Shown here: in pieces, positions 5,668 through 29,085 of the stretch
Position numbering within the stretch: position 1 is the stretch's first letter
Layout: every line of letters starts with the position of its first letter
From: Vulcanimicrobiota bacterium
GTDB lineage: Bacteria; Vulcanimicrobiota; Vulcanimicrobiia; Vulcanimicrobiales; Vulcanimicrobiaceae
Assembly (NCBI GenBank): GCA_003136355.1
Contig: PLED01000002.1
Span: 40,230 to 79,689, forward strand
Length of the DNA stretch: 39,460 nucleotides
Reading direction: 5' to 3'
Made by a program: the position numbers and the translations under genes
Notes under the pieces: model-generated
The model's database searches: none
The model's input: only the letters and a program-made list of their open reading frames with translations
What the model was told of the DNA's origin: nothing

Positions 5668-6852
5668 TTAAAGCGCGCGCAACGGCTCGTCAATCTGATT
5701 CGAAGACGTCGGCTCGAAAGCATGCAGAATATCGCGCGCGCTCAGATCGTCGGTCTGCAAGTAGTGAGCCGCATCACCTTCGGTCAGAGTACCCCTCCGC
5801 AGGAGCAATGAGAGTAGGTACAGGTATCGCGCAGGATAAGGAGGGAGCGATTCGGTTCGCCTGTCGATTCCGAGCGCGCGCTCCGCTTCGACCGGCCGCA
5901 GTCCTTTAGCCATCGCGTGATCATACGTGTTTCGCGGTATTCGCCCGAGCGACTCAAGGCGATTACACATCGCTTGAAAGGACACGTGGAATTGATCCGC
6001 CAGCAAAATTATGTGAGCAAGCGTCGTATGCTGCGCATGACCGGCAATCTTAGCGAACCGCCGCGAGACGCCACTCGCCGGCATCAAGAAATTTGTCGCA
6101 AATATCTCTGCGAATTGCTCTTGTCGGCTGCGGCTTCGGCGATTTTCTGTTACATAAGTTATCTCTGGATCGTAACGATTCGTTAGGTAATGGGCGTACT
6201 CATGTGCAAGCGTCCAGCGCTGCCTTCTCGGATCAGATTGTTGAACGTTGAACCCTATTAAAGGCAGATCGTTCGCGTACATGAAAATGCCTGCGATTTT
6301 CGCCGATTGCAACTCCCTTAACCCAAAGACGAGCATCCCAATGTCTTGTTCCAAAACCGCACGCAGATCGAGCAAGGGACCGTCTCCCAAACTCAGTCTC
6401 GCGCGTTCAGCAGCAGCAAGATCCTCCGCTGCGTGTTCTACGTCCGAAGCTTCTTCGATCGAAATCGCAATCACCGAGGGTTGCTGGAAACTCTTACCGG
6501 CAACATCTTGCATCAAGACATAGTAACGCGCGAAGTCGCTTAGCGCCTGAACAGCTCCTGCTGCGGTCTTGTCATCGCGTATCGGACTTCGGAACCTTAT
6601 CTCAGCCTGCGAATCGTATTTGGGCAGCATTGCTAGGTCGCGGACTCGAGTTTCCAATTCAGCGGCAATTGTTGTGAGCATCTCCGGGCCAGGCGACCGT
6701 TGGCCAGCCTCGAAGGCGATCAGTGTCGGTCTCGAAACTCCAACCCTTTTCGCAAGATCAGCCTGACTTAAGGAGCGGCGACGTCGGGCAGCGGCAATGT
6801 TCGGACCTATGACGCCAGGATTCAGCTCAAGGCCGTCAAGCGGCATGATCAA
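5668..6852 (-). CDS. XRE-family HTH fused to ImmA/IrrE metallo-endopeptidase
   Basis: N-terminal HTH (LSQADLAKRVGVSRPTLIAFEAGQRSP) and LAHEYAHYLTNRY (HExxH) with downstream AEIFATNFLMP. Confidence 0.88.
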   Translation of the reverse strand: MIMPLDGLELNPGVIGPNIAAARRRRSLSQADLAKRVGVSRPTLIAFEAGQRSPGPEMLTTIAAELETRVRDLAMLPKYDSQAEIRFRSPIRDDKTAAGAVQALSDFARYYVLMQDVAGKSFQQPSVIAISIEEASDVEHAAEDLAAAERARLSLGDGPLLDLRAVLEQDIGMLVFGLRELQSAKIAGIFMYANDLPLIGFNVQQSDPRRQRWTLAHEYAHYLTNRYDPEITYVTENRRSRSRQEQFAEIFATNFLMPASGVSRRFAKIAGHAQHTTLAHIILLADQFHVSFQAMCNRLESLGRIPRNTYDHAMAKGLRPVEAERALGIDRRTESLPPYPARYLYLLSLLLRRGTLTEGDAAHYLQTDDLSARDILHAFEPTSSNQIDEPLRAL

Positions 6853-8176
6853 GCGGTCTCCACGTATTCAACTCGGCCACGTGCCGTCGAAGCAACTCAA
6901 GTGTCTGCAGTTGCAAGAACTCCCGATGATGCTGAATATCTTGTGATGCTCGAGCCGCCACTCTCAGGTCGTCGGAATGCGGGACTATCGCAATGCTCGA
7001 TTGGAGCCTGTTGAGGGCAAGCCACGGGTCCTCTGACCGCAGCGCCGCGTCGAGAAGCCCTGCATGGTAACGCAACAGAGCAGCATATTCCAACGCGTCG
7101 CCCTTCCTAGAAACATACGCATAGTGCGCATCAAAGGACTCTATGCGGGCACTCGCTATGGAAAGCTGCCGGATCCGACACGAACCACAAGTGCCGCAAT
7201 GGAACACGCGGCGTTTGGCTTGCCGATAGCCAGCATCGCAAGAAAACGTCTCTCTGACGAGAGCCAGGGCCGCTGGGGACAGACTCTTGAGCATTTCTCC
7301 CTTTGTGCGAAACCGGTTCGGGTAGCGGACCTCTATGGTGCGCCCGAAGAAAGCGCGCGAGATCTGATCCCATAATGGAAGATGCCCGGGCTGCAGCACC
7401 TGAGACGACATTCCCCCGTATTGCAAATCTGGAACGGGAAGATTCAGCAGTCCAAATCCATTCTCATAACATTCCACCGTATCGGATCCCAGTGCATGCG
7501 CCAGAGTCATGCCCATCGCGACCGCGAGAACCGTGCGAGATCTTTGAGTCTTTTCTTTGGCCTTGTTTCCGCGCTTGAGGCGCAAGCGGATCATGTAATG
7601 ATCGATCGCCGCGATCTCGCTTTCGCTGCCCAGTTCCATCATCGCGCTGATGCGCTTGCGTCTATGGCCGGATATCACCGATACCCAGGCCATACGTCGA
7701 GACTCCTGTAGCGCCGCATCAAGCCCGCACAGCGAATCAAGCCCATCGCTGAGCAAACCGACGGCTTCGACGGGCTCAGTCAGAGATAGGCTCTGCATCC
7801 TGTCGTGGTGATCGCCGGCGTCCCGCCATGGAACGGGAACCACCTCGACATCATCGTCCGTCAAAGCCAACAGCCACTGTCGCACAAGAGGGACGTTCCG
7901 ACGCCAGAGTTCAGGACTTCGCACAGGATAGCGCAGCACGAATGTACGCCCGAACCCGTTCATCGGACGCTTCACAAACCGGTCCAGCGCGTAGTAGGCG
8001 ACGCAGAGATCCAAGAGCTCAAAAAGAGTCGGATCGCTTGCCTCCGTCGTGAACGGGTGAAGTTGGCGCGCGTCGAATCTGGCTATTATTGAGGGCGAAC
8101 CGAAATCGTCGCGATCGACGTCGACCGCTATAAAGTGCCCGTCAAACCGAATGCGCCCGGCTACAGACGGATTCAT
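6836..8176 (-). CDS. QueC-like PP-loop ATPase (7-cyano-7-deazaguanine synthase-like, QatC/Cap9-type)
   Basis: PP-loop LLSDGLDSLCGL (SxGxDS), Cys4 zinc site C-x13-CGTCGSC; long N-terminal extension. Confidence 0.75.
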   Translation of the reverse strand: MNPSVAGRIRFDGHFIAVDVDRDDFGSPSIIARFDARQLHPFTTEASDPTLFELLDLCVAYYALDRFVKRPMNGFGRTFVLRYPVRSPELWRRNVPLVRQWLLALTDDDVEVVPVPWRDAGDHHDRMQSLSLTEPVEAVGLLSDGLDSLCGLDAALQESRRMAWVSVISGHRRKRISAMMELGSESEIAAIDHYMIRLRLKRGNKAKEKTQRSRTVLAVAMGMTLAHALGSDTVECYENGFGLLNLPVPDLQYGGMSSQVLQPGHLPLWDQISRAFFGRTIEVRYPNRFRTKGEMLKSLSPAALALVRETFSCDAGYRQAKRRVFHCGTCGSCRIRQLSIASARIESFDAHYAYVSRKGDALEYAALLRYHAGLLDAALRSEDPWLALNRLQSSIAIVPHSDDLRVAARASQDIQHHREFLQLQTLELLRRHVAELNTWRPLDHAA

Positions 8177-8721
8177 GGGCGATTTACGGGGATAGGCTCG
8201 CCAACAATCTGCGACTGGTCTCGAACCGTTGGCGTCGGACGAGGCGCTGGCTGCATTTCCAGATAGCGGCTCCGGTGCCGAGCGGCTAACTCGTCGATAA
8301 CAGCAGATTTTAATTTTCTAAGGGGAACGCGCGCATCGGGCCAGTCGCGCTGCCCCTCGAGGCATCCCTCCATCCATCGAACTTGCCGCTGGGCGTAGGC
8401 TACGCAAAGATCGTCCCCGTATTGCTGCGCCTCACTGAATGCCTCCGCAAGACGCATGGCCGGGTGCGACTGCCGCGCCCGTTCTCTGATCGCGTCGACC
8501 TCCGCGTCGTTGCCCGCGAACAAAGGCTGCATTTGGCGCGTGAGCACGCGATGCACTTGCCGAAAGAAGGCAGGCAAATCCCCATCCGCCTCGTGATCGC
8601 GCATCGCGATATGATCGCAAATCTCGGCAACGACCGATTCCGCACCCACCTGGAGCTGGTACGATAGCGCCCCGAAGCGCTTATCGAGCACCCGGGCAAA
8701 GCGATCACGGTCGGTGGCCAT
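8173..8721 (-). CDS. Uncharacterised helical protein, coupled to the QueC-like gene
   Basis: 182 aa; ATGA-type overlap with the downstream start at 8176. Confidence 0.6.
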   Translation of the reverse strand: MATDRDRFARVLDKRFGALSYQLQVGAESVVAEICDHIAMRDHEADGDLPAFFRQVHRVLTRQMQPLFAGNDAEVDAIRERARQSHPAMRLAEAFSEAQQYGDDLCVAYAQRQVRWMEGCLEGQRDWPDARVPLRKLKSAVIDELAARHRSRYLEMQPAPRPTPTVRDQSQIVGEPIPVNRP

Positions 8722-8770
8722 AAACCAAGCCTAGCGCGCGGCTGTTACAATGTCAAGTAGCTTCTGCGTT

Positions 8771-9100
8771 TTATGCGCCGTTTAATTGACTTAGTCTAGA
8801 CCGGCGCAGTGCCAATGCGATCGCCCCAACCAGGCTCTCAGGCGAGTATCCGTGACCACGCTGACGCCAGAAGAGGCTCTCGTACCGGGCCCACAAGGGC
8901 CCGGGGAGAAGTTCGACCAGACGGGCGTCGGGGTCGCCGATCGCCGCCGTGAGCCCGACATAGTCGCCCACTTCCAGCAGCGTCCGGACGTCTTCCGGCA
9001 GCTGCGCCCAACACCGCCGTCTCAGATCGGCCAGCGCCCGAACATACGCCTCCAACCCTCGAGGCGCAAACAACTCGGCCGGCGCAGCTTCTTCACTCAT
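8771..9100 (-). CDS. Uncharacterised protein, first gene of the QueC-like cassette
   Basis: 109 aa; 49 nt upstream of 8721; start codon abuts the operator repeats. Confidence 0.5.
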   Translation of the reverse strand: MSEEAAPAELFAPRGLEAYVRALADLRRRCWAQLPEDVRTLLEVGDYVGLTAAIGDPDARLVELLPGPLWARYESLFWRQRGHGYSPESLVGAIALALRRSRLSQLNGA

Positions 9101-9135
9101 TTAGTAAATTTACTAAATTTACTAAATTTAGTAAA
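9100..9135. promoter_or_regulatory. Four-unit palindromic operator
   Basis: TTTAGTAAA-TTTACTAAA-TTTACTAAA-TTTAGTAAA: two abutting perfect 18-bp palindromes between divergent genes. Confidence 0.75.
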
Positions 9136-9169
9136 GGTTCGAGATTGGCCGAGATTAGAATATCGTAGC

Positions 9170-9649
9170 GTGCCGCGAACAAGAACCGCATTCGATCCCG
9201 CCGGTCTCGACTACGGCGATCTTCAGTTGTATCTGTGCTGCAGGGACCTAGCAGCATCGCGCGGGCATTCGGATCCCGACTCGATTCTAGCGCGCGTCCA
9301 AACTGCGTTCAAGGGCGGCCACTTTCCCGACGCGATAGTATTACTGAAAAGACACCTCGCGATCGCTGGCATATCGCCCGAGCAAGACGACGTCGACCAC
9401 AAGCGTTTCGCCTCTCTTAGACGGCTGCGCGAGCTCACACAGGCGGAAATGGCCCGATCGCTTGGGTTATCGCCGTCAACCATCTGCAACTTCGAGAACG
9501 GCAGCGGCACGCTCAGCTTTGTAAGCGTCTTGCTAGCAGCGGATCGCCTTGGCGTGTCGGCCGACCAGCTGTTTCCCGGTTCCGCAATGAGAATGGCGGC
9601 GGCAGATGAGCTCTCCCGAAAACGTCGGCACAGAAAAGAATCCGCCTAG
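9170..9649 (+). CDS. XRE-type regulator with C-terminal HTH
   Basis: GTG start just after the operator; LRRLRELTQAEMARSLGLSPSTICNFENGSGTLSFVSVLLAADRLGVSADQLFP; the upstream track extension crosses the operator and is unlikely to be translated. Confidence 0.75.
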   Translation: MPRTRTAFDPAGLDYGDLQLYLCCRDLAASRGHSDPDSILARVQTAFKGGHFPDAIVLLKRHLAIAGISPEQDDVDHKRFASLRRLRELTQAEMARSLGLSPSTICNFENGSGTLSFVSVLLAADRLGVSADQLFPGSAMRMAAADELSRKRRHRKESA

Positions 9650-11723: not shown

Positions 11724-12137
11724 ATGAATGAATCGGCAGGGCTTCCATTGACGTTGCTGTCGCCATCCGTAACGACACGGCTTTTGTACTATGCCAGGGC
11801 AAACCAGGCAGCGATATATGTGCGCGAGCATATCAGCGAGCACATTCAGCTACAGGCTATTGCGACACTAGTATGCATGCATAAGGCGGCCTTTTCGCGG
11901 TATTTTGCAGATAAGATCGGCGTTACGTTTAGCAGCTTCGTTCGCACCCTCAAGGTCGAATATGCGATGAAACAGCTCGAATGCAGTGACCTCCAAGTTT
12001 CTGAGCTAGCGAACGAGCTCGGTTATACAAATCTCTGCAGCTTTACAAGAGTGTTCAAAGCAGTATCAGGACAAACTCCCTCCGAGTACAGGCGCAATCG
12101 GCTCGCGGCGAGATGTGCATCGCAAAACCGGTCATGA
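11724..12137 (+). CDS. AraC-family transcriptional regulator (DNA-binding domain only)
   Basis: IYVREHISEHIQLQAIATLVCMHKAAFSRYFADKIGVTFSSFVRTLKVEYAMKQL..SELANELGYTNLCSFTRVFKAVSGQTPSEYR. Confidence 0.9.
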   Translation: MNESAGLPLTLLSPSVTTRLLYYARANQAAIYVREHISEHIQLQAIATLVCMHKAAFSRYFADKIGVTFSSFVRTLKVEYAMKQLECSDLQVSELANELGYTNLCSFTRVFKAVSGQTPSEYRRNRLAARCASQNRS

Positions 12138-13309
12138 CGGCCGCACGGCGTCCCATGCTTTCACGGGAAGTGTCCGATGCAGCTATCGACATCGCCGAGC
12201 TCGTCGCCCGTCGCCTCTCGACTGCTCGGTCATTGGGCCGAGGATTGTGCGGCCCTGCCGGCATATCGATGCTCTACGCTGCGCTTGCGGAGGCAACAAA
12301 CGATGTTGAGTACGCTCGACTGGCGCATCACTTTCTCTCGCAAGCTGCTTCAAGCGGCGAGCCACCAATTCGGCGGCTCTTCTCAGGCGTGGATGGTCTG
12401 CTCGCTGCGGCGACATATGCCTCTCGGATCGATCCACTCTATGCCCGCTTGGCAAATCGGTGCGAAGTCGCGGTGGAACAAAGCCCTTCGCCAGAACTCG
12501 GGAAGCCATTAAGCTTTGACGTATATGATATCGTCTCGGGATGGGCTGGTGATTGCCTTGCATTTTACATGCGACCACCATCCGTAGCAAAAAGACAATC
12601 GCTCAACTACCTAATTTGGCTGACCGCTGGAGAACGCGACCGATGGAGTTGTCCCCATCCGCTTGATCGCCTCGGTGCACCACGCAATGATCTCGGCATG
12701 GCGCACGGAATCGCCGGCGTCCTAAGTGCGCTGACTCTGATCTCGCCCGAGGGATCTCCCGTTCATGACGCGGCGATAAAGCAGATAGCAGCATGGATAG
12801 CGGCAAATACGATCGACGCTTCTTCGCCGTGTTGGGGCGGATATATCGATCCGCGCGGGCAGCAACCGGCGCGTGCCGCTTGGTGCTATGGTACTCCAGG
12901 AGTGGCAGCGGCGTTGTTCCAGGCCGCAGTTCGGATAAATGACATTCCTCTGCAACAACTGGCGATTGATGCCCTGGAGAGGCAATCCGAAGCGCCGATC
13001 GATACCTGGGGCATGAAGGACCACGCCATATGTCACGGATCGATGGGAAACGCGCTTATCTTTGCGAGCGTGGGCGTGGCAAGCGGAAATCTAGCACTGC
13101 TTAATATCGCGGAGCAGTTAGTTACGAGAGTGGTCGATTCTTTTAACAAAAATTACCCCTATGGTTATTTGGGAGCTTCTTTAGATGAGGCTGAAGGGGC
13201 GGCCAATCTACTGGAGGGTGCCAGCGGCATCGCGCTGAGCCTGCTCACTCTGGCGTGTCGAGCCGACCCTTCTTGGATGGTGTATTTTGGCCTTGCGCCA
13301 GCATTTTGA
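12134..13309 (+). CDS. lanC: LanC-like lanthionine synthetase (cyclase)
   Basis: LGMAHGIAGVLS, RAAWCYGTPGVAAALF and AICHGSMGNALIF: His and CYG/CHG zinc-site motifs of LanC; ATGA overlap with the AraC gene. Confidence 0.9.
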   Translation: MTAARRPMLSREVSDAAIDIAELVARRLSTARSLGRGLCGPAGISMLYAALAEATNDVEYARLAHHFLSQAASSGEPPIRRLFSGVDGLLAAATYASRIDPLYARLANRCEVAVEQSPSPELGKPLSFDVYDIVSGWAGDCLAFYMRPPSVAKRQSLNYLIWLTAGERDRWSCPHPLDRLGAPRNDLGMAHGIAGVLSALTLISPEGSPVHDAAIKQIAAWIAANTIDASSPCWGGYIDPRGQQPARAAWCYGTPGVAAALFQAAVRINDIPLQQLAIDALERQSEAPIDTWGMKDHAICHGSMGNALIFASVGVASGNLALLNIAEQLVTRVVDSFNKNYPYGYLGASLDEAEGAANLLEGASGIALSLLTLACRADPSWMVYFGLAPAF

Positions 13310-13316
13310 ACGCAAA

Positions 13317-15044
13317 ATGACGGTTCGCCAGCTTTGGGAGGTATGCAGGGCATCGCCGGCCGTCGCCAGCGGCATTTTGGCGACATTTGTTCTGGGCGCG
13401 GCATTAAGCCCTCTAGCGCCGTTTCTGACAGGGCGAATCGTTGACGCACTGCAACACGGCAACTTCTGGCAGTCAATGCGCCAGCTTTATTGGATGGCAG
13501 GCGTGGTTCTCGCTTCCGCGCTCATTGCACTTGCCAACAATTACTTAGCGACGCTCTTCCGCGAAACACTTGCCCGCGATTTGAGGGTGCAAATAATTAG
13601 CAAGATCCATCGCGCTAAATTCGATTCCGCGCTAAAATTTACTGCGGGGGAGGCGATAAACCGTTTGTCCGGCGACATTGACGCGGTGACCATCCAGATG
13701 CAGTTCACTCTGTTCCCAACTATTTCGGCGTTTCTGGCGGTCATAGTGACGGTAGCGTTCATGTTCCAACTAAATAGCACGCTCGCCACCATCGCCTGCT
13801 GCGCAACACTAGCTTTATCCGTCCCCCAACACTTTGCTAAACGCCGATTCGCGACGTTTCGTCGGGAACTCAGCGAAGCTAGGGACCGATTGCAAACCAA
13901 GGCTCAGGAAACATTGACCCCCGGCGCGCTGGCGTTGCTCAAAGGAGCGAACGCGTTCAACCGGGAGAGCGTTCGCTTCGGAACGCATGCCAACAACGTG
14001 AGGTCCGTCAACTTGAGACAGGCGATGTTTGGCGGATGGATATCGGTGTGGTCATCGTTCCTGCAGATACTCGGCCCCGTCGCGCTGCTCGCTTTTGGAT
14101 CCTATTTGGTAAGCCAGCGCGCACTGTCCTTAGGTACTTTGGTTGCTTTTCTCGCATATCAGCGAAATCTGTCGTCGCCTTTCAGTGCAATTTCGAACCT
14201 GCAGGTTCAATTGGCAATTATGGCAGTCATCTTCCGAAGGCTTTTCGATCTTTTTGACTTGCCTGACGAGACTTCGGGAACGCATCCGCTTGGAGTCGGA
14301 CCGATCGAATTCTGCGATGTTTGGGTTACTCGAGCTCAAAGGCCAATTCTCAAATCTCTCAATCTGCGTATTGAGCGCGGAGCGCACCTGGCTATCGTCG
14401 GGCCGAGCGGATCTGGAAAATCAACTATCGCCGCGGTACTAATGCGTTTCATTGACGGCGAACGCGGGTCGGTTATCTTGGCGGAGACTCCCCTGTGTGA
14501 CATCTTGCTTTCGGAATTGCGCTCAAAGATCGCGCTGGTTCCACAGGACGCCTTTATTTTCAGCGAGACGCTTGATTATAACATTCGTTACGGCAAGCCG
14601 GGTGTAAGTCAGGCCGAGTTCGACAACGTAGCAGAACTTTGTGAAGTCAATGCAATGGCTCGACTGATGCCTCGAGGGTATGCTACCGAGCTTGGAGCGC
14701 ACGGATTCAATCTCTCCGGCGGCGAGCGTCAGCGCGTAAGCTTGGCACGCGCCCTGCTGCAACGGCCCGAGATATTGATCCTTGACGAGGCACTTACCGG
14801 CGTAGACTTAGAAAGCGAACGAGCGATACTGGGATCCGTGCGTCGACGAATGAAAAACCGGACGCTGATCGTGATCACTCACCGCCTTCACTCCATAGCG
14901 GAATTCGACATGATCGTCATCGTCGCCGATGGCCGGGTAGTAGTCACCGGGTCGCATGCTACTTTGATGCGCGATAACGCCTGGTACCGCGCAATGCTCG
15001 TCCGTGACCGGGAACCATCGACCGAGGTGCTTTCCTATAAATAG
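13317..15044 (+). CDS. ABC transporter, fused permease/ATPase, likely lanthipeptide exporter without C39 peptidase domain
   Basis: Six-TM N-terminal region; GPSGSGKST, LSGGERQRVSLARALL, ILILDEALTGVD. Confidence 0.9.
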   Translation: MTVRQLWEVCRASPAVASGILATFVLGAALSPLAPFLTGRIVDALQHGNFWQSMRQLYWMAGVVLASALIALANNYLATLFRETLARDLRVQIISKIHRAKFDSALKFTAGEAINRLSGDIDAVTIQMQFTLFPTISAFLAVIVTVAFMFQLNSTLATIACCATLALSVPQHFAKRRFATFRRELSEARDRLQTKAQETLTPGALALLKGANAFNRESVRFGTHANNVRSVNLRQAMFGGWISVWSSFLQILGPVALLAFGSYLVSQRALSLGTLVAFLAYQRNLSSPFSAISNLQVQLAIMAVIFRRLFDLFDLPDETSGTHPLGVGPIEFCDVWVTRAQRPILKSLNLRIERGAHLAIVGPSGSGKSTIAAVLMRFIDGERGSVILAETPLCDILLSELRSKIALVPQDAFIFSETLDYNIRYGKPGVSQAEFDNVAELCEVNAMARLMPRGYATELGAHGFNLSGGERQRVSLARALLQRPEILILDEALTGVDLESERAILGSVRRRMKNRTLIVITHRLHSIAEFDMIVIVADGRVVVTGSHATLMRDNAWYRAMLVRDREPSTEVLSYK

Positions 15045-15072
15045 CTTTCAAGATCGTTACGCATTAGGATCA

Positions 15073-18000
15073 ATGCCGCTGATCGTCGGGCGTACTCCCT
15101 TGCTCCCCTTTTCGACCATTTTTGATGTATGCTCGGCAGATGATCCCTACGAAGAGCTGCGGGCGCTCCTGCGTCGCCACCCTGCGGTGCTCACTGCCAT
15201 TTGCGCTGCTTCTCCGTCGCTATGTGAAGCCGCACATCAGTGGCTGTCGGATAAACCATACAAAAATAAGAAGATGCCGCTTCGTATTCTAGCCTATGTC
15301 GCGCGCATGTCAACTCGTACCACCCCGTTCGGTCTCTTCGCAAGCCTCGGAGAGGTTCACGCAGGAGCGAAAACAACGCTTCGATTGGCAGGCGGGGAAA
15401 CGCTGCGCACGTTTACTCGGCCGGACATGGGCTGGCTCTTCACACGTATTGACGAAATTGAAAAGGATGCTTCCACGCGGCTTCGGTTACATGTGTTCAC
15501 CAACGAAGCCGTCTTGAAGCGCGGTGGCCGGCTATATGTGCTGAACCCAAATCTCACCAGGGCGACGCAGTCCCGATCAGAGTATCTTCACGAGCAAACA
15601 CCCGTTTCGCTCAAACACACAGAGTCCGTCGAATTTCTCAGAACTTTCGCGCGCGACGGCGCCCTCGTCGCCGACTGCATAAACGCGCTTGCCGAGCGAT
15701 ACGCGGCAAGTCATGAGAAAGCAGAGCGTCTATTCGGACAACTCTGGGACGCTGGAATCGTGCTTTCCGAATTGCGCCCATCACCCTTATTGGATCCTTC
15801 CACTTATGTCTTTCAGTGCATGACTAGGGCCGGCTTACCGTTTGCGGATGTACTTGCCGAAGCGATCAAGGCGAGCGCAATCTTCGACCGAAAGCCCGTT
15901 CTCAAACGATGCACAGCGGATCTTACATCGGCGATGGAGCCATTACGTAATACTACAGCCGCGGCGGACAATGTCTTACAGATCGACATGCGGCATGATT
16001 TCGTCGGAATGCTCGGCAACTCTATCATGGATGACGTTTCTGTGCTGGGCGAGTCCCTGTTTCGGAGCGCGCCGATCTTGGAACTCAAACGCTATCGCGA
16101 GCGCTTCATGGAACGCTACGAAGGCACTGATCGAATCGTGCCCTTGTTGGAACTCGTCGATGCTGATTTCGGATTGGGTCCACCCGAGGGGCTGACTGAG
16201 GTCCGCCCTGAACCGCAAAACTCTCGCGATTTTGCAATCACGAGCCTTGCGGCGCGCGCCGCCCGAGAACATCTGCTCGAGATTGCGCTCACAGAAGACG
16301 AATTCAATCAATATCTGCCGGCCATCTCTTTCGAAGATTCTGTGTTCCCTGATTCGATCGAAATCGCATTTACCGTTGCGGCGCGCTCTCTGTCAGCGCT
16401 CGAGAAAGGTGAATATAGAGTGGCTCCGGCCGCGTTCAGCGCGTCCGAAAGCGCTGGGAAAAGCCTCGGTAGGTTTGGACACGTCCTGCGCAACCAAACA
16501 ATGCAACGCTTCAGAACGCTGGCCAGTAACGCGAACGAGGACGAAATAACTGCAGAGCTCGTCTATGCGCCCGGCGCACGCGGATACAATGTCGCAGTAC
16601 GGGAACGCTTGTACGCCTATGAAATCAATTTCGGAACCTTTGGCCACTCTGGCGCGGTTCGATTGCCCTTCGACGACCTGTGGGTTGGACTCGACATAGA
16701 CCGTTTTTACATCTGGTCGCAGTCGCTCCAACGCCGGGTCCAAGTTCGCGAGGGCCACGCCTTCAACACATACGGCTTAGCGCCAAACGTATGCCGGTTC
16801 CTATCGGTGGTCGGCCGCGACAGAAGGCGCGGCTTGCGCGAGTTCAATTGGGGACCGGCAGCTAATTTTCCGTGCTTGCCACGCTTGCGCCACGGACGGA
16901 CTGTTCTTTCCCTAGCAGCATGGAAAATGGATAAATCGGCGCTCGATGCTTCAATCCAAGAATCTCGTGAGCGCATTGCCAAATGGCGCGAGAGATGGGC
17001 CGTTTCCCGGCACGTCTACCTTTGCGAAGCTGATCGATGGTTGCCGATCGATTTGGAGTCCGACGTTTCGCTTGCGCTCCTGTGCGATCAGAGCCGCCAA
17101 GCCGCGAGCTCGACGTTGCTGTTCAAAGAAATTTATCCCGGCGTCGACGAAATGTGGGTCACCCGGGGTTTAGACCGGCACGCCACGGAGTTCATCGCCA
17201 GCTATGCTTCTCGCCCGATTGAGCGCGCAGCTGCAAGCGTCAGCTCACCAACTCAACGCGTACGTTACGGTCCCGGGTCAGAGTGGCTCTACGTCAAACT
17301 GTACGTCGGCGCAAATCGAACGGAAACGTTGCTGACATCGAGCATCGCCCCACTTGTCGAGTCGCTCAAAGCCAAGCGGATGGTACAAAAGTGGTTCTTT
17401 CTCCGATATGCCGACCCGCTACCTCATGTCAGGCTTCGCTTCCATGCTGAGGAGGGCTCTGATACCGCCGTTCGAGACTGCGCAATTGGCGCTTTTGAAG
17501 CATGGCTCTGCGACGAGCAAATCGACCGATACTCCCTCGACACATATGATCCAGAATTGGAGCGTTATGGCGGCGTCGGAGCGATCACCGCCGCAGAGCA
17601 GCTCTTTTGGATCGACAGTGAGATCTGTCTAAACGTCCTAGCGACCGACAACGGCGAGCCGACTGAGCTTCGGATTAGATCTGCCGCCCGAAGCTTCGAC
17701 GGAATCTTTTCGGCTTTCTACGCGCAACCCGGAGTTAAGGAAGCACTTGATGAAGAGCCCGGCGTTAAGTTGAAAGCACAGGATTGGACGCTGGTCAAGG
17801 AGCTGCAGTGCAAAACACCCACTACGCCATTCGGCGACGCTTTTCATGCCGCCCTGACTGCGCTCGCACAACAGTCGATTTCTCGGAATCCCCTCACACG
17901 AACGGTCAGTAACCTACACCATATGCACTGCAATCGTCTTGGGCTAGATGCCAAGGCGGAGCGTCGCACAATGAACATACTTCGACGCCTTTGTTTGTCA

Positions 18001-18075
18001 CGCATCGCCATGGCCAAAGCAAAAGAGCTCAAAGCAGACGCTCCGAGCCCTTACGCAACTACTAAGAATGCCTAG
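15073..18075 (+). CDS. lanB: Full-length class I lanthipeptide dehydratase (LanB)
   Basis: N-terminal YVARMSTRTTPFGLFASLG; C-terminal WFFLRYADPLPHVRLRFHAE (SpaB_C/thiopeptide-type domain). Confidence 0.92.
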   Translation: MPLIVGRTPLLPFSTIFDVCSADDPYEELRALLRRHPAVLTAICAASPSLCEAAHQWLSDKPYKNKKMPLRILAYVARMSTRTTPFGLFASLGEVHAGAKTTLRLAGGETLRTFTRPDMGWLFTRIDEIEKDASTRLRLHVFTNEAVLKRGGRLYVLNPNLTRATQSRSEYLHEQTPVSLKHTESVEFLRTFARDGALVADCINALAERYAASHEKAERLFGQLWDAGIVLSELRPSPLLDPSTYVFQCMTRAGLPFADVLAEAIKASAIFDRKPVLKRCTADLTSAMEPLRNTTAAADNVLQIDMRHDFVGMLGNSIMDDVSVLGESLFRSAPILELKRYRERFMERYEGTDRIVPLLELVDADFGLGPPEGLTEVRPEPQNSRDFAITSLAARAAREHLLEIALTEDEFNQYLPAISFEDSVFPDSIEIAFTVAARSLSALEKGEYRVAPAAFSASESAGKSLGRFGHVLRNQTMQRFRTLASNANEDEITAELVYAPGARGYNVAVRERLYAYEINFGTFGHSGAVRLPFDDLWVGLDIDRFYIWSQSLQRRVQVREGHAFNTYGLAPNVCRFLSVVGRDRRRGLREFNWGPAANFPCLPRLRHGRTVLSLAAWKMDKSALDASIQESRERIAKWRERWAVSRHVYLCEADRWLPIDLESDVSLALLCDQSRQAASSTLLFKEIYPGVDEMWVTRGLDRHATEFIASYASRPIERAAASVSSPTQRVRYGPGSEWLYVKLYVGANRTETLLTSSIAPLVESLKAKRMVQKWFFLRYADPLPHVRLRFHAEEGSDTAVRDCAIGAFEAWLCDEQIDRYSLDTYDPELERYGGVGAITAAEQLFWIDSEICLNVLATDNGEPTELRIRSAARSFDGIFSAFYAQPGVKEALDEEPGVKLKAQDWTLVKELQCKTPTTPFGDAFHAALTALAQQSISRNPLTRTVSNLHHMHCNRLGLDAKAERRTMNILRRLCLSRIAMAKAKELKADAPSPYATTKNA

Positions 18076-26273: not shown

Positions 26274-29085
<2,812 letters not shown>

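Follow-up and report, generated by a model that had tools for sequence, protein, structure and literature searches.

A window of 39,460 nucleotides from the 2.5-Mb genome assembly of a Vulcanimicrobiota bacterium (GCA_003136355.1, contig PLED01000002.1, positions 40,230 to 79,689; the phylum is called Candidatus (Ca.) Eremiobacterota below) contains a compact minus-strand gene cassette, whose core consists of three genes encoding a 182-amino acid (aa) protein, a QatC-like enzyme of the QueC family, and a fusion of an XRE helix-turn-helix (HTH) domain with an ImmA/IrrE peptidase (XRE-ImmA protein). We read this cassette, with a probability of roughly 55%, as a so far unnamed module that spreads by horizontal transfer, serves immunity or abortive infection, and has a QatBC-like pair at its base; in it, the enzyme would tag the N-terminus of its small partner and the XRE-ImmA protein would switch the module. 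In line with the supposition of an earlier note, which was made from the sequence alone, the cassette corresponds to none of the named systems in PADLOC, NCBIfam, or the literature searched, and literature searches for QueC combined with ImmA or PIN turned up no account of it. The gene set is not a product of chance, because the unit recurs in three other genomes at 25-59% identity and, with its gene order kept, on distant plasmids.

Conservation of the core genes

The earlier note had proposed a new four-gene cassette and had suggested examining whether its homologues occur together. Profile searches located the three core genes in the same 4 of 149 genomes of the phylum, where they are adjacent, in the same order, and never found apart. 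In the three other genomes, the identities to the window proteins are 50, 48, and 33% for the QatC-like enzyme, 40, 36, and 25% for the 182-aa protein, and 59, 59, and 47% for the XRE-ImmA protein. What is conserved is thus an unnamed set with a core of three genes rather than four; it is not confined to one lineage, and its plasmid form usually adds a gene for a PIN-like protein.

When the XRE-ImmA protein was searched with tblastn against 72,556 plasmids, 49 records were obtained, and at each of the best 12 places listed the match comes immediately after a QatC-like gene. The 16 plasmid loci examined are all alphaproteobacterial (Roseomonas, Agrobacterium, Ensifer, Rhizobium, Sinorhizobium, Shinella, Methylocystis, Bosea, Labrenzia, Mesorhizobium, Sphingobium, and NT-25) and show the gene order ~190-aa protein, QatC-like enzyme, XRE-ImmA protein, and usually PIN-like protein. 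The XRE-ImmA gene follows the QatC-like gene in all 16 loci, and the ~190-aa gene lies 5' of the latter in 15 (in S. fredii, L061, it was not found as a frame of at least 140 codons). A ~200-aa PIN-like gene comes next in 15 loci, the exception being Sphingobium (L067), where the gene was not resolved. The QatC-like gene of Mesorhizobium (L075) is broken into two frames. The PIN-like label is tentative and draws on conserved acidic motifs, on a Pfam match below threshold (16.7 vs 23.6 bits), on weak similarity to PDC-S70, and on the label of one NCBI record; no sequence match to this protein was found in the PDB.

The QatC-like enzyme

The 446-aa product of the second core gene had been described as a QueC-like enzyme with an SDGLDS motif that acts outside queuosine synthesis, and this description holds. 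The protein matches the QatC model of PADLOC (2.8e-31), the NCBIfam QatC model NF041925 (131.9 bits, below the equivalog cut-off of 280 bits), and Pfam QueC (25.7 bits). A profile comparison with QatC gave 99.9% probability (E 3.7e-37) over 315 columns, which span the N-terminal extension and everything up to the zinc site. The QatC-type core with its N- and C-terminal extensions is present, the C-terminal extension being assessed by length only, and the nearest solved structures are QatC chains. The zinc motif CGTCGSC is kept, and the canonical QueC motifs YxQxHxxE, VPxRN, and YPDC are absent from the protein. The enzyme is thus specifically a QatC relative and not a housekeeping QueC.

The active site departs from that of QatC in two places. 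The P-loop reads SDGLDS in the window enzyme and S[DNEK]G[LM]DS among the cassette enzymes, compared with SGGxDS in QatC, and the Thr-x-Thr pair (STRT) of the QatC active site, which is invariant in QatC and essential (PMC13279940), is replaced by S/T-Q-V/A (SSQV, STQV, or SSQA). In a phylogenetic tree the four Eremiobacterota enzymes form a clade (support 100/99) separate from canonical QueC and also from the groups of QatC (99/98) and of the plasmid enzymes (94/93).

When genome and viral collections were scanned for patterns of the 446-aa protein alone, no match was obtained; these scans use short peptide patterns, which divergent relatives escape, as the plasmid group did. An alignment-based scan returned two Eremiobacterota records already known and two haloarchaeal relatives. 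No match was found in an alignment-based scan of viral contigs, nor was a phage match found for the plasmid QatC-like enzyme.

The small partner protein

The 182-aa protein is likely the counterpart of QatB. The earlier listing of QatA, QatB, QatD, and cyclase partners as absent therefore remains valid for QatA, QatD, and the CD-NTase, but probably not for QatB. N-terminal tagging is proposed mainly because the N-termini of the small proteins are conserved like those of QatB and of the substrates of the type IV cyclic oligonucleotide-based antiphage signaling system (CBASS). According to two reports (PMC13279940; PMC11996544), the conserved N-termini of the latter proteins are exposed after removal of Met, are essential for defence, and enter, or have been modelled into, the active site of the QueC-family enzyme. 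At the four Eremiobacterota loci the 182-aa family starts with M(A)TDxDR, the T, D, D, and R of the first seven residues being invariant. Among 11 non-redundant alphaproteobacterial plasmid proteins of ~190 aa, the mean pairwise identity is 0.52 over the 13 residues after Met vs 0.23 for the rest; their best-conserved windows all start at the N-terminus (MSDGPHKSLP), which follows M[ST]DGP[HF][KR] in all but Roseomonas. As a separate observation, the C-terminus of the plasmid proteins (L062-L075) is also conserved, roughly as [DN]xG[VP].

The predicted structure of the 182-aa protein is confident (predicted local distance difference test score 82.9) and all-helical, with a putatively disordered C-terminal tail (residues 163-182); in the Eremiobacterota family this tail ends in a hydrophobic stretch. 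The model has no significant structure match in the PDB or among viral models, the presence of QatB in the PDB fold library being unchecked, and tblastn found no match to the protein in plasmids. A structure search with the model of the 109-aa protein encoded upstream likewise gave no significant match in the PDB or viral models. Neither protein was assigned to a family in the PADLOC, NCBIfam, and Pfam scans, in agreement with the first reading of the sequence.

Gene layout, promoter, and regulators

The four minus-strand open reading frames had been located correctly, including their tight spacing and overlaps (Table 1), except that the 109-aa and 182-aa genes are separated by a 49-bp gap that holds a promoter of its own. 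The XRE-ImmA frame can be opened from a TTG (6852-5668, 394 aa), but the ATG at 6846, which yields 392 aa, is the start kept in two of three homologues.

Table 1. Features of the cassette, with positions in the window
Feature	Position	Strand	Remark
XRE HTH-ImmA/IrrE (Peptidase_M78) fusion, 392 aa	5668..6846	minus	RmrA-like, HEYAH intact
QatC-like (QueC-family PP-loop) enzyme, 446 aa	6836..8176	minus	
182-aa all-helical partner, position of QatB	8173..8721	minus	
Promoter TTGACA-N17-TAGGCT	8719..8756	minus	ends 6 nt 5' of 182-aa gene ATG
109-aa helical protein	8771..9100	minus	accessory
Operator-like array, 36 bp, four 9-bp half-sites TTTA[GC]TAAA	9100..9135	none	
Divergent XRE regulator, ~159 aa	9170..9649	plus	accessory

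The promoter pattern TTGAC[AT]-N17-TA[GA][GC][CA]T ends exactly six bases 5' of the 182-aa start codon at all four Eremiobacterota loci. It matches once in the window, never in 100 shuffles, and once in each retrieved locus that contains the 182-aa gene start, although the pattern was derived from these same loci, so that its recurrence there is by construction. The notable point is the common spacing to the start codon amid otherwise diverged sequence. The distance of six bases implies a leaderless transcript and thereby fixes the N-terminus of the 182-aa protein.

The divergent XRE gene had been thought to control the whole cassette. Its product does contain an XRE HTH domain according to the library scan, but its start most likely lies near 9170 and not at 8852, because a start at 8852 would place part of the gene antisense to the 109-aa gene, and the alignment with homologues begins at about 9170; moreover, the core has its own promoter. 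The divergent gene forms an accessory pair with the 109-aa gene, both being present at three of the four Eremiobacterota loci. The 36-bp operator-like array is shared by the two genes and lies between them; no shuffle equals it, and a degenerate array of four 9-bp sites occurs at the locus of genome G099 (L007). Homologues of the divergent XRE gene stand in the same place in L007 and L002. At the locus of genome G104 neither gene of the pair was found, the position of the 109-aa gene being occupied by an ASCH-like gene (below the Pfam cut-off).

Mobility and genomic neighborhood

Divergence is greatest in the copy from the window's own genus (G104), whose enzyme is 33% identical to that of the window compared with 48-50% for copies from other genera, and the cassette has therefore probably moved horizontally. 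Since the flanking genes differ among most loci, it moves independently of any single element. The G099 copy has an integrase gene nearby, and the G104 copy (L008) adjoins a gene for a type IV restriction enzyme. Shedu adjoins the plasmid cassette in L060, AbiEi/AbiEii and AbiJ are found in L066, and the plasmid records include conjugative plasmids. In the window, positions 74-496 encode the C-terminal portion of a dCTP deaminase of the anti-phage type (PADLOC dCTPase, 115 bits), a gene truncated by the assembly gap at the window start and not by mutation (also L033, around 15730). The G+C content is 51-61% over 1-19 kb vs about 56-66% in the remaining window, which is consistent with an acquired region. 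An internal contrast is provided by two other genomes of the family, which possess genuine QatABCD, including a TatD gene and a QatB that begins with MGTS.

Only ~34% of the QatC cluster sits with qatA (PMC13329287), implying that many QatC-like genes lie outside qatABCD, and the cassette may therefore go unnoticed within such sets. The QatC-like enzyme of the plasmid cassettes (records H45-H69) is often annotated as 7-cyano-7-deazaguanine (preQ0) synthase, a misleading queuosine-enzyme label that conceals many plasmid copies. Two further arrangements were seen beyond the cassette. In Halosimplex (L009, 4105-9209) and Halorhabdus (L010), an AAA ATPase, DUF6414, a 158-aa protein starting with MGSATS, a 143-aa protein, and a QatC-like enzyme (SDGLDS) are encoded in what looks like an archaeal Qat-type system. 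On a Leptospira noguchii plasmid (L057, 2592-5236), a QatC-like enzyme is fused to a DpnII/MboI restriction endonuclease domain and has a 5' partner starting with MGHERL.

Proposed mechanism and alternative explanations

In the immune module that we propose, the QatC-like enzyme would bind ATP in its PP-loop, activate a small acid, and attach it to the N-terminus that the removal of Met leaves free on the 182-aa partner. The acceptor residue would be Ala/Thr here and Ser/Thr in most plasmid relatives, as opposed to Gly in QatB. The XRE-ImmA/IrrE protein would repress the pair or hold it inactive until infection or DNA damage causes its peptidase to activate the module; the analogy here is with RosmerTA, ImmA/ImmR, and CapP/CapH. 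The toxic output would likely be the PIN-like nuclease in the plasmid relatives, and in Eremiobacterota either a host target or the partner in its modified form.

Several points weigh against this proposal. The modification of QatB by QatC is itself undemonstrated in vitro (PMC13279940), so that the reaction of the cassette is doubly inferred. The change of the P-loop Gly to Asp, Glu, Asn, or Lys together with the loss of Thr-x-Thr could mean that catalysis is altered or lost. The 182-aa family shows no detectable homology to QatB (profile probability 1.7%) or to the plasmid ~190-aa family (5.7%), and its model is predicted to lack a long disordered N-terminal tail like that of QatB; with the disorder at the C-terminal end, any reach into an active site is hypothetical. 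A joint clade of the Eremiobacterota and plasmid enzymes costs 4.4 log units (approximately unbiased test, p-AU 0.199) and is neither demonstrated nor rejected; the common gene order may therefore stem from shared descent or from repeated association. Finally, many of the neighbouring genes are ordinary.

The strongest alternative is a toxin-antitoxin (TA) system of the RosmerTA/COG2856-Xre type, in which the XRE-ImmA protein would be both antitoxin and peptidase. The toxin, acting on tRNA, nucleotides, or another cell target, would be the QatC-like enzyme together with its 182-aa partner or, on plasmids, the PIN-like protein, and no N-terminal tagging would be involved. The library scans confirmed the XRE HTH and Peptidase_M78 domains in the last gene product, with the HEYAH motif intact as the earlier note had described, and its best PADLOC model is RmrA (100 bits, 2.4e-29; plasmid form, 83 bits), a protein whose antitoxin role in toxin pairs of phage defence is proven (PMC10440598). 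XRE-COG2856 proteins adjoining PIN toxins have been predicted as a TA type (PMC2701414), and the plasmid location and patchy distribution of the cassette also fit. Known RosmerTA systems, however, are gene pairs, whereas two extra genes accompany the RmrA-like gene here, and the strongest conservation of the small protein at its extreme N-terminus would not be predicted for a plain toxin. Since, in addition, no PIN gene was seen behind the XRE-ImmA gene at the Eremiobacterota loci, we regard a plain TA system as unlikely.

It is clearly less probable still that the cassette serves the maintenance and regulation of a plasmid or island, with the XRE-ImmA and divergent XRE proteins controlling a mobile element and the enzyme pair assisting its entry, transfer, or anti-restriction. 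The integrase beside the G099 copy, the conjugative plasmids, and the control of ICEBs1 by ImmA/ImmR in Bacillus (PMC2701414) would agree with such a role, but the differing flanks speak for independence of any single element, and the nearest characterized relative of the enzyme is an immunity protein.

A small-molecule role, be it the synthesis of preQ0 or another 7-deazapurine or the tailoring of neighbouring lanthipeptide-like products, is largely refuted and very improbable: the genome does encode QueD and QueE side by side (L044, on a contig other than that of the cassette) as well as tgt (27134-28315 in the window), and no canonical QueC was found in it by profile search, but the QueC motifs are absent from the cassette enzyme, no such Lan genes were noticed near the other copies, and the cassette is not a replacement for QueC because it is present in only 4 of 149 genomes, while most genomes of the family have no canonical QueC. 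The question raised by the earlier note of membership in a housekeeping preQ0 pathway is thereby answered in the negative. Weak PF06508 matches elsewhere in the genome were rejected as QueC, being MnmA and NadE by inspection. QueD and QueE are the makers of 7-carboxy-7-deazaguanine (CDG), the nucleobase used by Cap9, and as QueE is encoded, CDG is probably made in the cell; the presence of QueD and QueE without canonical QueC counts in favour of the proposed immune module. Adjoining the cassette, LanC-like, ABC transporter, and LanB-like genes (12113-18075) apparently form a lanthipeptide-type cluster for a ribosomally synthesized and post-translationally modified peptide.

Beyond the immune-module reading, we tentatively put forward, at somewhat less than even odds, that the cassette represents a third family of QueC-based immune systems, separate from both QatABCD and type IV CBASS, in which a remodelled P-loop and pocket would place a new N-terminal modification on a small protein with a [ST]-D motif, and in which a repressor-peptidase (with a PIN-like nuclease on plasmids) would couple this modification to infection. 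Protein-tagging immune enzymes of the QueC family first appeared in the literature in 2025-2026, and the reaction catalysed by QatC has yet to be worked out. The present enzyme, a conserved relative that differs in its partner motif and pocket and comes with a built-in protease switch, is a natural comparison for finding out what QueC-family enzymes attach, and it suggests that protein tagging by the QueC fold is more widespread than the two known systems.

Comparison with known systems

The closest likeness is to the QatBC core of QatABCD, of which QatBC alone can defend (PMC13279940). Both systems are mobile and combine a QatC-type enzyme, as recognized here by hidden Markov models and profile comparison, with a small helical partner that is encoded just 5' and has a conserved extreme N-terminus. 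Unlike QatABCD, the cassette has no QatA (KAP ATPase) or QatD (TatD nuclease) in the window or beside the related cassettes read, its partner starts with M(A)TDxDR or MSDGPHKS instead of MGTS and, in the 182-aa family, is not detectably homologous to QatB, its enzyme has an S[DNEK]GxDS loop without Thr-x-Thr, and an XRE-ImmA protein is always added.

With type IV CBASS, the cassette shares a QueC-family enzyme in an immune-type operon and a conserved, processed N-terminus as the presumed substrate. It differs in having no CD-NTase, Cap10, or OGG gene (no PADLOC or Pfam match for CD-NTase or Cap10), and Cap9 keeps the canonical motifs (PMC13329287) that the cassette enzyme lacks.

RosmerTA and the XRE-COG2856 (ImmA) TA systems resemble the cassette in the XRE-ImmA fusion that matches RmrA models and, on plasmids, in the PIN-like partner; the QatC-like enzyme and the dedicated small protein are additions undescribed for RosmerTA in the literature searched. 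CapH/CapP and ImmR/ImmA, lastly, follow the same logic of an XRE repressor and an ImmA/IrrE peptidase, and the separate XRE regulator with its operator-like array is a further likeness, whereas in the cassette the peptidase and HTH are fused and encoded behind the enzyme gene.

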